Positions 4,185 to 62,503 of a DNA stretch of 64,000 bases are shown here, piece by piece; the stretch's first letter is position 1; every line of letters begins with the position of its first letter. The translations under genes were made by a program, and so were the position numbers. The notes beneath the pieces were generated by a model, which had not been told where the DNA came from, did not search any database, and was given only the letters and a program-made list of their open reading frames with translations. Origin of the DNA: Oscillospiraceae bacterium (GTDB lineage: Bacteria; Bacillota; Clostridia; Oscillospirales; Ruminococcaceae); assembly GCA_029007985.1 (NCBI GenBank), contig JAQXIW010000017.1:1-64000 (forward strand), written 5' to 3'.

Positions 4185-4934
4185 ATGTCAGGACATTCAA
4201 AATGGAGCACCATTAAAAGAAAAAAGGGCGCAAATGACGCCGCAAGAGCAAAAGTGTTTACAAAACTTTCCAGAGAGATTGCGGTAGCCGTCAAAGAGGG
4301 CGGCGGCGACCCTAACAACAACTCAAAGCTCAGAGACCTTCTCGCAAAAGGCAGAGCGGCTAATGTGCCTCAGGACAACCTTTTGAGAGCCATTAAAAAA
4401 GCCGGCGACGATGACAAGACAAACTATGAATCCAACGTATACGAGGGCTACGGCTGCGGCGGTATTGCCGTCATCGTGGAAACTCTCACAGACAATAAAA
4501 ACAGAACAGCGTCAAATGTCCGCCACTATTTTGACAAATTCGGCGGCAATCTCGGCTCTACCGGCTGTGTTTCATATATGTTTGAGACAAAGGGCGTAAT
4601 CGTAATCGAAAAAGACGAATACGAAACATACGACGAAGAAGAAATTATGATGAACTGCATGGAGGCCGGAGCAGACGATTTTTCAAATGAGGAAGATGTC
4701 ATCGAGGTCACATGCCGGGCTGCAGATGTATCGGCGGTTGCCGACGCTCTTGAAGGCATGGGCTACAAGCTCGCCCAGAGAGAAGCCGCACAGGTACCGA
4801 ACAACTACACAAAAATTGAAGACGAAGAATCGCTCAAAAAACTTGCTCTCTTGTTCAGCCATCTCGAAGAAGACGACGATGTTCAGAACTTCTACCACAA
4901 TCTTGAAAACGAAGAAGATTTACCGGAAGTTTAA
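4185..4934 (+). CDS. yebC: YebC/PmpR family DNA-binding regulator
   Basis: MSGHSKWSTIKRKKGANDAARAKVFTKLSREI signature, full length. Confidence 0.96.
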   Translation: MSGHSKWSTIKRKKGANDAARAKVFTKLSREIAVAVKEGGGDPNNNSKLRDLLAKGRAANVPQDNLLRAIKKAGDDDKTNYESNVYEGYGCGGIAVIVETLTDNKNRTASNVRHYFDKFGGNLGSTGCVSYMFETKGVIVIEKDEYETYDEEEIMMNCMEAGADDFSNEEDVIEVTCRAADVSAVADALEGMGYKLAQREAAQVPNNYTKIEDEESLKKLALLFSHLEEDDDVQNFYHNLENEEDLPEV

Positions 4935-4999
4935 TACGATACTAAATAACGGGCTTTGCATTTACGGAGTGCAGAGCCCTGTTTGATAAAGGGGTTAAA

Positions 5000-6700
5000 A
5001 TGTCGGATAACATCTGTATTTTTTGTCACGGAATACTCGACGAAAACGGCGAGTGCTCACGATGCGGTTTTCCGCAGACGAGCCGGGCAAAACATTTGGT
5101 GGGCACGCTGGAATACGGCACGAGGCTCGGCGGCTACACCGTCGGCGACGTCGTCGCCATGGACGGCGAGAGCACATCCTATCTTTCCTACGATATAAAG
5201 AACAACCGCAGAGTAATAATCAAGGAATTTTTGCCGGTCTCTATGATAGGCGGCCGCGACGGAGATATGATATTGCCGCAGCGGGGCAAGGAAGTACTGT
5301 TCAAAAATCTGATGATGGATTTTGTCGACATTCATTCCGCCGTTGCAAAAGCCAACAGCCGCTCCGTTCAGGCGGTGTATGACATTATCACGGAAAACGG
5401 CACGGCATACGCTGTTTTGGAATACATAAAGGGCGAAACGCTGAAAGAAAACCTGATTAAAAGGGGCAAGCCATATTCTTTTCGAGAGGCCAGATGGCTT
5501 TTCAAAGACCTTTTCAATGCGGTGGAAATTCTCGAGGAGATGAACATCGCCCACGGCGGCATAAGCGACGAGACGGTTATGATAACTCTCGAGGGCGCGC
5601 TTGTGCTGACCGGTTTTGCCATTCGGGATTTGAGAGTGCGCAACGAGCACATAATGTACAAACTCTACGACGGATTTTCCGCCCCGGAGCAGTACGCCCA
5701 GAACAAATTTGCCGGAATGTATACCGATATTTACTCGGTTGGCGCCCTGTTTTTTAACGCCGTCACCGGCAAGCTGTTTTACCCGGGTGCATTTAACGAC
5801 GAAAATATCGCAGCCCTCTTCCCGAAACACGCCATTGAGGCAATTAAAAATGCAACCAAGACCGAACCGTCGGAGCGCACCGACAATATTTCGGATTTTG
5901 CCGACGGCCTCGACGGCAAAATAAAAGCCGCAAAGGCTGCGCCTCGGCGGGAATCGGGGGAGAAAATATCAAAAGTTAAGAGTTTTACCGAATCTTTTGA
6001 CAAAAGATACATACCGATTGTTGCCGTAGTGCTGATAGCCGTGCTGTTTGTAATTGCGATTTTCGGGATGACGGGGGATAAAGAGACAACATCCTATTCC
6101 GGCGACAGCACATCGGAAATAATTCGGACGGTTGAAACCGTAATTGTGCCGGATTTCCGCAACGCCGAATACGAAAAAGTTGTCGAAAACCCGATGTATT
6201 CGGAGGATTTTCAATTTTCTGTCAGCTATATTCATTCAAATGATGTTGCAGAGGGGCACATTGTTTCGCACACGCCGGAGGTCGGCACAAAGGTTGACAA
6301 GGGTACGGTTATTTATTTGACTGTTTCAAAGGGCGGAGAACTGCCGAAGGTCCCTGACGGTCTGGTGGGAATGGAAATTGCCCGGGCCGAGAGATATTTG
6401 GATTCTCTGGGCATAAGATACGCTCAGATTCAAGTCAAACAGACGGAAAAATATCCGTACAACACCGTTGCCGGCACGGACAAGGTGGCAGGTACCGAGA
6501 TAGACCCGGACAGAGATGTGCTATTGCTCTATGTTTCAGACAATACGCCGTTGGTCGTATCATCATCGTCTGCGTCCCGGGAAGAGCCGCCGCAGTCCTC
6601 TGAAGAGCCGCAGCCGCCTCGGTCATCGCGGGAACAAACACCGAGCGAGTCGACAGAAACCGAAAATTCGGCAGAAAATACCGACGGAAACGGCGAATAA
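5000..6700 (+). CDS. Zinc-ribbon / protein kinase-like (catalytically degenerate) / TM / two PASTA domains
   Basis: N-terminal CIFC...CSRC; kinase-like IIKEFLP and SAPEQY retained but HRD replaced by HGG and DFG by TGF; TM IPIVAVVLIAVLFVIAIF; two PASTA-like repeats; Ser/Pro/Glu-rich tail. Confidence 0.85.
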   Translation: MSDNICIFCHGILDENGECSRCGFPQTSRAKHLVGTLEYGTRLGGYTVGDVVAMDGESTSYLSYDIKNNRRVIIKEFLPVSMIGGRDGDMILPQRGKEVLFKNLMMDFVDIHSAVAKANSRSVQAVYDIITENGTAYAVLEYIKGETLKENLIKRGKPYSFREARWLFKDLFNAVEILEEMNIAHGGISDETVMITLEGALVLTGFAIRDLRVRNEHIMYKLYDGFSAPEQYAQNKFAGMYTDIYSVGALFFNAVTGKLFYPGAFNDENIAALFPKHAIEAIKNATKTEPSERTDNISDFADGLDGKIKAAKAAPRRESGEKISKVKSFTESFDKRYIPIVAVVLIAVLFVIAIFGMTGDKETTSYSGDSTSEIIRTVETVIVPDFRNAEYEKVVENPMYSEDFQFSVSYIHSNDVAEGHIVSHTPEVGTKVDKGTVIYLTVSKGGELPKVPDGLVGMEIARAERYLDSLGIRYAQIQVKQTEKYPYNTVAGTDKVAGTEIDPDRDVLLLYVSDNTPLVVSSSSASREEPPQSSEEPQPPRSSREQTPSESTETENSAENTDGNGE

Positions 6701-59812: not shown

Positions 59813-60535
59813 ATGAAAATTTCGGCGCGAACGGACAAAGGATATAAACGATCCGAAAACCAAGACAGATACATCGCCGGCAAACTTGCCAACGGTGTGT
59901 GTTTTGGCTTTGTTTGCGACGGTATGGGCGGCGCAAAGGGAGGCAGCGTGGCGGCGTCCATGCTCACGGAAATATTGGAGGGCTGCCTTTTTTCACAGAG
60001 CTCAAACAGGGCGATTGACATTGAAAAAGTCGCCGTCGATGCCATTGATTCGGCATGTCGGGAGATATATTCCAGAGCCTGCCTGGACGAAAGGCTGGGC
60101 GGAATGGGCACTACAATTTCCGGCGTCACCGTCAAAGACGGTCTGGCGACGGTCTACAATGTGGGCGACAGCCGAGTTTACATATCCAGAGACGGGATAT
60201 TGACTCAAATAACAGAGGACCATTCCGTTGTTCAGGAACTTTTCAACAGGGGCTCCATCACCGAGGAGGAAATGAACAACCACCCCAGAAAAAACCTGAT
60301 TACAAGGGCTGTCGGCGTAAAACACGATGTGGAGACCGACATCACCGAGGTGGCACTGAAAAAGGGCGACAGGCTGCTCTGTGCCTCCGACGGTTTGACC
60401 AACTTTATTTCAAAGGAGGATTTGAGCAGAATTATGTCCTGTCGGGACATTTATTCGGCGGCCGGCGAGTTGGTCGGCAAAGCTCTGCTCAACAATTCCA
60501 CCGATAATATTACGGCAGTAGTGCTGGAATACTAA
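59813..60535 (+). CDS. prpC: PP2C-type Stp1/PrpC protein phosphatase
   Basis: ARTDKGYKRSENQDRYIA, FVCDGMGGAKGG, ASDGLTNFI. Confidence 0.95.
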   Translation: MKISARTDKGYKRSENQDRYIAGKLANGVCFGFVCDGMGGAKGGSVAASMLTEILEGCLFSQSSNRAIDIEKVAVDAIDSACREIYSRACLDERLGGMGTTISGVTVKDGLATVYNVGDSRVYISRDGILTQITEDHSVVQELFNRGSITEEEMNNHPRKNLITRAVGVKHDVETDITEVALKKGDRLLCASDGLTNFISKEDLSRIMSCRDIYSAAGELVGKALLNNSTDNITAVVLEY

Positions 60536-60550
60536 ACGAAAGGTAAAGAT

Positions 60551-62503
60551 ATGGATAACAGTTATATTGGCAAATTGGTGTCCGGAAGATACGAAATAAT
60601 ATCTCTCATCGGCATAGGCGGCATGTCAAATGTCTATAAAGCCGTCGACACCAAAACGGGACAGACGGTAGCCGTCAAATTTATGAAGCCGGAGCTATTC
60701 GAAAACGAAGAGCTGGTCAGACGCTTCAAAAACGAGAGCAAGGCTATTTCTCTGCTCAATCACCCAAACATCATTAAAGTTTTGGATGTTAGCATAACCC
60801 CGACCGAAAAATACATAGTTGTCGAATACATAGACGGCATCACCCTGAAAGAGTACATTGAAAACCGCAAAATTCTCACCGTTCGGGAGACGGTGCGGTT
60901 TACACAGACTATCCTTGACGCGATAGGCTATGCCCATCAAAACGGCATTATACACAGAGATATGAAACCTCAGAATGTGATGCTTTTGAGGGACGGCACA
61001 ATCAGAATAATGGATTTCGGCATCGCCAGACTCTCCACCGCCAACCAGCACACAGTCACCGACAAGGCGATAGGCTCGGTACATTACATCAGTCCGGAGC
61101 AGGTAAAGGGCAAGGAGAGCGACGCGAGAAGCGACATTTATTCTATCGGCATAATGATGTACGAAATGCTGACGGGAGTTTTGCCGTTTACCGGAGATTC
61201 CGCCGTCAATGTGGCTATGAAACAGGTCAACGAGGCCGCAAAACTGCCGTCTCGGATTGTTGACGCGGTGCCGGAGGGCTTAGAGCAGATTGTCATGAAG
61301 GCAATGGAAAAGAACCCTGCCGACAGGTATCAGAACGCAGATGAGATGATTGCCGACCTAAAACGGTTTAAGGAAAACCCGGCAATCGTGTTTCCGTACG
61401 GAAAAGAAGAGGAGGCGACACAGGCTATTCCGGTGAAAACAGCAAAAACAGCCGTACAAAAAGGCGGCAATTCAAAGAAAAAGAGAAAAAAGACATTCGG
61501 TATTTTGCACGCTTTGGCGGCGATTGCCATTGTTGTGTTCATAGGCTCGCTGGTGCGGATTTTTGCAATGTTCAAAACCAGCGGCAACTCCCTGATTTCC
61601 CGACGGGACAATGTGGATTTACCTAACTTTGTCGGAATGACGGTGGAACAGGTAAAATCACAGGGCTATAAATTCAAATACACGGTTGAAGAAGCAAACA
61701 ACACAAACTATGCCAAAGGTCAGATTTACGCTCAAAACCCGAGACCGCCTAAGACGGTCAAAGAAAACGGCACGATCAAGCTGTTCGTATCTCTCGGCCC
61801 GGCGACAGAGCAGCTGATAAATCTGTCCGGATACACGCGCAGCGAGGCCGAAAGATATTTGGGAGAGCTCGATGTCAATGTAAATATCGTAATGGTGGAA
61901 AATAAATCCGTCTCGTCAAACCATGTCATCTCCACAGATCCGGAGACCGGCACAATCATAACACGGGGCAGCACGGTCACGCTCTATGTTTCAAAGGGAG
62001 ACCCGGAGAACACAAGAACGAAAGTGCCTGTGCCTAACGTAGTCGGTCTGTCAAAAGATGAAGCGTCAAAAATTCTGGCGGCGAACAAACTCACCCTGGG
62101 CGCATATACCTCCGAATACTCAGACGCCCCGGCCGGCACGGTCATCAGACAGTCGCCTGACCCGGGCGAAAAGACATTTGCCGGCGGCAGAGTCAGCATC
62201 GTGCTTTCCGACGGCCCAATGCCGCAACCGAAGTGCAGTATTTGCGGCAAGGAAGGCCACGAATCAAAAGACCATGTCTGCGAGCTGTGCGGCGAAAAGG
62301 GACACGGCGAGGACAACTGCCCGAATGTCGAAAAATGCGAGCACTGCGGCAGCACAGAGCATAAGAGTGAGGATTGCCCGACAATAGTGCCTACGCCTAC
62401 ACCTACGCCGCCGCCTACGCCGACTCCTCCGGAAAGCAGTGAGGAAACCGGCGGCGAAAATCCGGGCGGCGACGATGTGGCGTCAGAGCCTGCGGGAGAA
62501 TAA
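60551..62503 (+). CDS. prkC: PASTA-domain Ser/Thr protein kinase with C-terminal CCHC zinc knuckles and proline/threonine-rich tail
   Basis: IIHRDMKPQNVMLL, IMDFGIAR, one TM, three PASTA repeats, then CSICGKEGHESKDHVCELCGEKGHGEDNCPNVEKCEHCGSTEHKSEDC. Confidence 0.95.
   Translation: MDNSYIGKLVSGRYEIISLIGIGGMSNVYKAVDTKTGQTVAVKFMKPELFENEELVRRFKNESKAISLLNHPNIIKVLDVSITPTEKYIVVEYIDGITLKEYIENRKILTVRETVRFTQTILDAIGYAHQNGIIHRDMKPQNVMLLRDGTIRIMDFGIARLSTANQHTVTDKAIGSVHYISPEQVKGKESDARSDIYSIGIMMYEMLTGVLPFTGDSAVNVAMKQVNEAAKLPSRIVDAVPEGLEQIVMKAMEKNPADRYQNADEMIADLKRFKENPAIVFPYGKEEEATQAIPVKTAKTAVQKGGNSKKKRKKTFGILHALAAIAIVVFIGSLVRIFAMFKTSGNSLISRRDNVDLPNFVGMTVEQVKSQGYKFKYTVEEANNTNYAKGQIYAQNPRPPKTVKENGTIKLFVSLGPATEQLINLSGYTRSEAERYLGELDVNVNIVMVENKSVSSNHVISTDPETGTIITRGSTVTLYVSKGDPENTRTKVPVPNVVGLSKDEASKILAANKLTLGAYTSEYSDAPAGTVIRQSPDPGEKTFAGGRVSIVLSDGPMPQPKCSICGKEGHESKDHVCELCGEKGHGEDNCPNVEKCEHCGSTEHKSEDCPTIVPTPTPTPPPTPTPPESSEETGGENPGGDDVASEPAGE

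Follow-up and report, generated by a model that had tools for sequence, protein, structure and literature searches.

To our knowledge, bacterial pseudokinases have barely been studied, and most of what is known of PASTA domains comes from active kinases and penicillin-binding proteins. In the kinase PknB, the PASTA domains bind muropeptides or lipid II (PMC6428115), and IreB, or ReoM in Listeria, is a PASTA-kinase substrate of Firmicutes (PMC7286690). Seven pseudokinase-rich bacterial families (ActPs1-3, GLW, CP1, DYD and DLHK) are listed in a 2025 review, which describes the DYD kinases as having a DYD motif and retaining HRD and/or DFG motifs (PMC12599244). None of the families in that review matches the protein reported here in motifs, domains and taxonomy; zinc ribbons are unmentioned in it and PASTA occurs in its reference list only. 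A zinc-ribbon/PASTA pseudokinase family was not found described in the literature searched, the scope of which excluded most subscription papers.

The locus analysed lies in a 64,000-nucleotide stretch of an Oscillospiraceae bacterium (GenBank assembly GCA_029007985.1, contig JAQXIW010000017.1, positions 1 to 64,000), referred to as the window. The ORF at 5000-6700 is predicted to encode a protein that is almost certainly a pseudokinase, with the following features:

5000..6700, + strand: zinc-ribbon PASTA pseudokinase gene, ORF of 566 aa plus stop (Pfam, AF2, orthologues)
5015..5065, + strand: N-terminal zinc-ribbon-like CxxC...CxxC, residues 6-22 (Cys conserved in 100-103 of 105 homologues, most others having gaps)
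5111..5911, + strand: pseudokinase domain, residues about 38-304 (PF00069, 1.4e-14; AF2; PDB folds PpkA, PknB)
5156..5173, + strand: degenerate glycine loop AMDGES, residues 53-58, replacing GxGGFG
5222..5224, + strand: beta3 Lys75 (Lys in 60 and Arg in 39 of 105 homologues)
5552..5575, + strand: pseudo-catalytic loop HGGISDET in place of HRDxxxxN (HRD Asp to Gly)
5612..5620, + strand: DFG position, reading GFA (TGFA at 5609-5620; Gly in 87 and Asp in 10 of 105 homologues)
5672..5695, + strand: retained P+1/APE segment GFSAPEQY (alignment; partly biased by the search pattern)
6002..6070, + strand: single transmembrane helix, residues 335-357 (hydrophobic stretch; helix in the AF2 model)
6137..6334, + strand: PASTA domain 1, residues 380-445 (Pfam)
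6347..6544, + strand: PASTA domain 2, residues 450-515 (Pfam)
6545..6697, + strand: Ser/Pro/Glu-rich disordered C-terminal tail (mostly pLDDT <50; least conserved segment of the family)

Domain architecture and catalytic residues

The layout of a PASTA Ser/Thr kinase is present in this ORF, comprising a kinase fold, a transmembrane helix and predicted extracellular PASTA repeats, and the initial annotation, which had described an N-terminal CxxC...CxxC ribbon, one transmembrane segment and two PASTA domains, was borne out in each of these elements. The putative ribbon Cys are residues 6, 9, 19 and 22, and Pfam recognises PASTA twice (4e-16). An AF2 model built on a 57-row alignment had a mean pLDDT of 85.9, with the kinase fold and the two PASTA folds confident, and the closest PDB folds to the pseudokinase domain were the kinase PpkA (best), then the PASTA kinases PknB/Stk1. 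The Pfam Pkinase match (1.4e-14) begins at profile position 52, so the profile does not recognise the N-lobe. The ORF scores 141.9 bits with NF033483, the PASTA Ser/Thr kinase model, below its cut-off of 450, and it has no match to the EssB/YukC T7SSb EssB domain up to E 10 (Pfam). Both the CxxC ribbon and the IKE(Y/F)xP motif, features of zinc-ribbon HRDISPDN kinases, are found in it.

Residues were counted in an alignment of 105 distinct homologues keyed to active kinases. The protein had been read as a membrane pseudokinase lacking the HRD Asp, the Asn and the DFG Asp, and this reading holds in the orthologues, the check that had been proposed for it: the HRD Asp position is occupied by Gly in 102 homologues, Ala in three and Asp in none, the DFG-site Asp is present in 10/105, and the catalytic-loop Asn is retained in 36/105 and absent from ORF 5000-6700. 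By the general criterion for a pseudokinase, loss of at least one catalytic-triad residue (beta3 Lys, HRD Asp or DFG Asp), the HRD Asp is lost in 105/105 and the DFG Asp in 95/105 homologues. The glycine loop, rightly called unrecognisable, has the family consensus x-x-(N/D)-G-(E/D)-(G/S); the Phe of the active GGFG is replaced by Glu/Asp in 101/105 homologues, and the glycines are kept in 19/19 active relatives. Two losses go beyond the earlier reading: the alphaC Glu position is Ile111 here (Glu in 0/105 and Leu in 87/105 homologues), and the VAIK Ala is Ile, Ala being retained in a single homologue of the 105.

Other kinase positions are almost invariant, including the HRD His, the APE Glu and the subdomain IX Asp (each 105/105), the subdomain XI Arg (104/105) and the DFG Phe/Tyr (101/105). 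Judged from the alignment, the structural core is retained together with the regulatory-spine His and Phe, and the chemistry is gone. The zinc ribbon and the pseudo-active site rank among the most conserved parts of the family, and its two most conserved segments are the dead catalytic loop and the P+1/APE segment, although conservation of the latter is partly inflated by the use of the pattern G(F/Y)(S/A)APEQY to fetch loci L031-L110, whereas the catalytic loop was in no search pattern. Given its rank, the dead catalytic loop is being retained, not drifting.

Phylogeny and distribution

A tree of 75 kinase domains, from which the catalytic-loop and DFG columns had been removed, placed the 43 pseudokinases in one clade (support 100/98), the 19 active zinc-ribbon kinases as its sister (95/92) and the 13 PrkC-type kinases in a distant group (100/100). 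ORF 5000-6700 therefore falls outside the active zinc-ribbon HRDISPDN clade and within a separate sister clade, and the distance of the PrkC-type kinases rejects an origin as a degenerate PrkC duplicate. No PASTA domain was detected in ten active zinc-ribbon relatives scanned; where these had a recognised extra domain at all, it was LRR, lectin, F5/8C or another one. A single pseudokinase clade with an active zinc-ribbon sister that lacks PASTA points to one ancient catalytic loss joined to a PASTA gain, and the simplest history would be one loss of catalysis and one gain of PASTA in the common ancestor, with later local PASTA loss. Identity between the PASTA repeats of the pseudokinase and those of PrkC is 16-28%, which is uninformative as to shared PASTA descent.

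Together with this sister relationship, the near-universal occurrence of the clade in its bacterial family extends the earlier reading. A homologue was found in 16/16 genomes searched in the window's genus and, in a survey restricted to family genomes at least 90% complete, 197/199 matched at E <1e-60, covering 95/95 genera and mostly in one copy; for motifs, the reading covered the fetched loci only. As to the specificity of this threshold, active zinc-ribbon kinases elsewhere reach at best about 1e-75, and all but two of the 197 matches were better than 1e-80. Both exceptions belong to genus g4, a member of which (G018, locus L121) was read directly and is a pseudokinase. This 381-aa form stops right after the transmembrane helix, keeping the ribbon, pseudokinase domain and helix and having no PASTA, which suggests that the sensor is dispensable in genus g4. 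PASTA and Pkinase were both present in 57/57 complete pseudokinases scanned, these having been selected as open frames of 500-720 aa. Strong matches also occur in two families related to that of the window; within the order, full-length matches were found in families f1, f24 and f23, and a match in family f16 spans the kinase half only. Named records with homologues include Gemmiger, Faecalibacterium, Ruthenibacterium, Bittarella, Angelakisella, Massilioclostridium and many gut Oscillospiraceae MAGs.

Genomic context and proposed function

The source genome (1.63 Mb, 96% complete) encodes two kinase-fold proteins only, the pseudokinase and a PrkC, and its PASTA proteins are these two and one further protein on contig 3. 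The other elements of the window that bear on function are:

4185..4934, + strand: yebC-like gene (MSGHSKWSTIKRKK...), the only recurrent same-strand upstream neighbour
4951..4979, + strand: terminator-like hairpin in the gap from yebC to the pseudokinase gene (fold -21.4 kcal/mol, z -4.2)
59813..60535, + strand: PP2C-type phosphatase adjoining PrkC (sequence motifs)
60551..62503, + strand: canonical active PASTA kinase, PrkC type, candidate partner (HRD, DFG; NF033483)

The apparently active PASTA kinase and PP2C phosphatase noted initially at 59813-62503 were confirmed as a PP2C-like ORF and a canonical kinase with HRD and DFG, scoring 533 bits against the NF033483 cut-off of 450; an RsgA-like ORF comes after the pair. 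Past the third PASTA domain, and thus predicted to lie outside the cell, PrkC carries CCHC zinc-knuckle-like Cys/His repeats at residues about 575-625 (zf-CCHC, 9.9e-5). PrkC terminates in similar repeats in all 10 genomes of the genus that were read (of CxxC type in L179), and the motif was not found in four PrkCs read from other genera. In several same-genus genomes (L175, L176, L180 and L182), a second short PASTA-bearing open frame of about 250-270 aa adjoins prkC. PrkC was above cut-off in 57/61 relatives, and it also occurs where the pseudokinase is absent; IreB was found in 39/41 genomes, including that of the window.

Gene neighbourhood gave no partner. Among 111 loci, the pseudokinase gene was linked neither to prkC nor to wall genes, and upstream on the same strand only yebC recurs (22/111), lying directly upstream also in two other families of the order (L116/L117); other recurrent neighbours, among them opposite-strand ssb/rpsR-like genes, look housekeeping. 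The yebC gene ends 66 bases upstream of the pseudokinase gene, and the strong terminator-like hairpin between them makes co-transcription uncertain. Elsewhere in the window, ORF 121-1368 (415 aa) is an apparent fusion of a flavin-reductase-like domain, rubredoxin-like CxxC motifs and rubrerythrin.

The product is rather likely a non-catalytic PASTA receptor; a little less strongly favoured is the fuller reading, in which it spans the membrane once, serves as a PASTA receptor/scaffold without catalysis and takes part in peptidoglycan control, perhaps through an effect on PrkC. Outside the cell, the PASTA pair would read the state of the peptidoglycan (muropeptides or lipid II), as PASTA biology suggests; given the ligands bound by PknB, a wall-precursor signal would be the natural input. 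Dispensability of the PASTA domains of C. difficile PrkC for activity and location (PMC9674922) counts against a receptor. On the cytoplasmic side, the zinc ribbon and the rigid, catalytically dead kinase fold would act by protein contact only, cell-wall signals probably being passed on by gripping other proteins, not by phosphorylating them. The partner would be PrkC, the cell's one active kinase, anchored in the same membrane, with the pseudokinase as allosteric partner, decoy or substrate-scaffold and output to IreB/ReoM and wall synthesis being tuned. On co-occurrence and shared architecture alone, a direct partnership with PrkC is somewhat doubtful. Because the pseudokinase domain does not descend from PrkC, a PrkC-type dimer interface would not have been inherited from it. 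Also against the proposed reading are the absence of linkage to prkC or wall genes, the low identity of its PASTA repeats to those of PrkC and the PASTA-less form in genus g4. A speculative extension is a family-wide two-member kinome of an active PASTA kinase and an obligate PASTA pseudokinase, of separate descent and sharing an outside ligand, in which the pseudokinase would be a built-in allosteric regulator or decoy that sets the way PrkC signals wall precursors to IreB/ReoM. That a large family of gut bacteria has a PASTA pseudokinase almost universally, usually in single copy, implies that cell-wall sensing includes a conserved arm without catalysis, and makes it testable whether PASTA signalling can be run or tuned without phosphotransfer by the receptor.

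The rival that survives best, and a serious one, is a scaffold or substrate independent of PrkC, in which the ribbon and pseudokinase domain would keep a protein of wall synthesis or division at the membrane and PASTA would serve septal localisation only. EssB/YukC and MviN, precedents also for action by contact in the main reading, show that membrane pseudokinases can work as scaffolds (PMC12599244), the PASTA-less genus (L121) still has the cytoplasmic module, and the conservation of the ribbon and pseudo-active site fits such a role, but no conserved gene neighbour suggests a client and this reading is considered rather unlikely. Its MviN-FhaA version is improbable, since no FHA domain was detected in the source genome. 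Kinase-fold proteins can also have alternative catalysis, as do SelO and SidJ, and the pseudokinase might still bind nucleotide and catalyse AMPylation, glutamylation or weak phosphorylation; beta3 is Lys/Arg in 99/105 homologues, some members retain Asn192 or the DFG Asp, and the pseudo-active loop is strongly conserved. Such activity is nevertheless very unlikely because the nucleotide and metal ligands, namely the glycine loop, the alphaC Glu and both the catalytic and the metal Asp, are all lost together; in addition, 104/105 homologues have another residue in place of the VAIK Ala, mostly a bulkier one that would be expected to crowd the adenine site. That the gene has recently decayed or been misassembled, as a domain that appears broken when read alone might suggest, is refuted by the 105 distinct homologues from many assemblies, which share the substitutions in open frames.

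Comparison with known systems

The pseudokinase domain of Mycobacterium MviN (ActPs3) is likewise a membrane-linked dead kinase in peptidoglycan control, but it is fused to a MurJ-like flippase, has the motifs VALT/Lsidhpsr/Y-- and works through FhaA (PMC12599244); the motifs of ORF 5000-6700 differ from these and it has no MurJ-like domain (Pfam). EssB/YukC of type VIIb secretion is another pseudokinase from Firmicutes that crosses the membrane once and serves as a scaffold; it differs in its motifs, in having no PASTA or zinc ribbon and in being tied to the T7SS. The DYD kinases are set apart by HGG and GFA here, the DFG site being Gly in 87/105 homologues. A subfamily of the 42-family atlas behind the review may already include the pseudokinase under an active-kinase label. 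PpkA, a T6SS kinase, is the best PDB match in both sequence and fold and has a similar IKEYMP motif; however, the alignment shows an HRD-like HRDIS in it, and its system and phylum are different ones.

PrkC/Stk1/PknB (NF033483) share with the pseudokinase a kinase fold inside, one transmembrane helix and PASTA outside, whereas the pseudokinase is distant from them in the tree, falls far short of their model's cut-off, has HGG and TGF where they have intact HRD and DFG, and carries an extra zinc ribbon. In the related genera at L111-L114, active zinc-ribbon kinases cluster with PP2C-like, zinc-ribbon and secreted-looking ORFs. The active zinc-ribbon Ser/Thr kinases of Clostridia (IKEYYP...HRDISPDNI...DFG; for example L113, L143, L146 and L148) form the sister clade and share the N-terminal CxxC ribbon, the IKE(Y/F)xP beta3 motif, the ISPxx catalytic-loop context and EQY after the activation loop; unlike the pseudokinase, they keep all catalytic residues and, in the ten scanned, are without PASTA.
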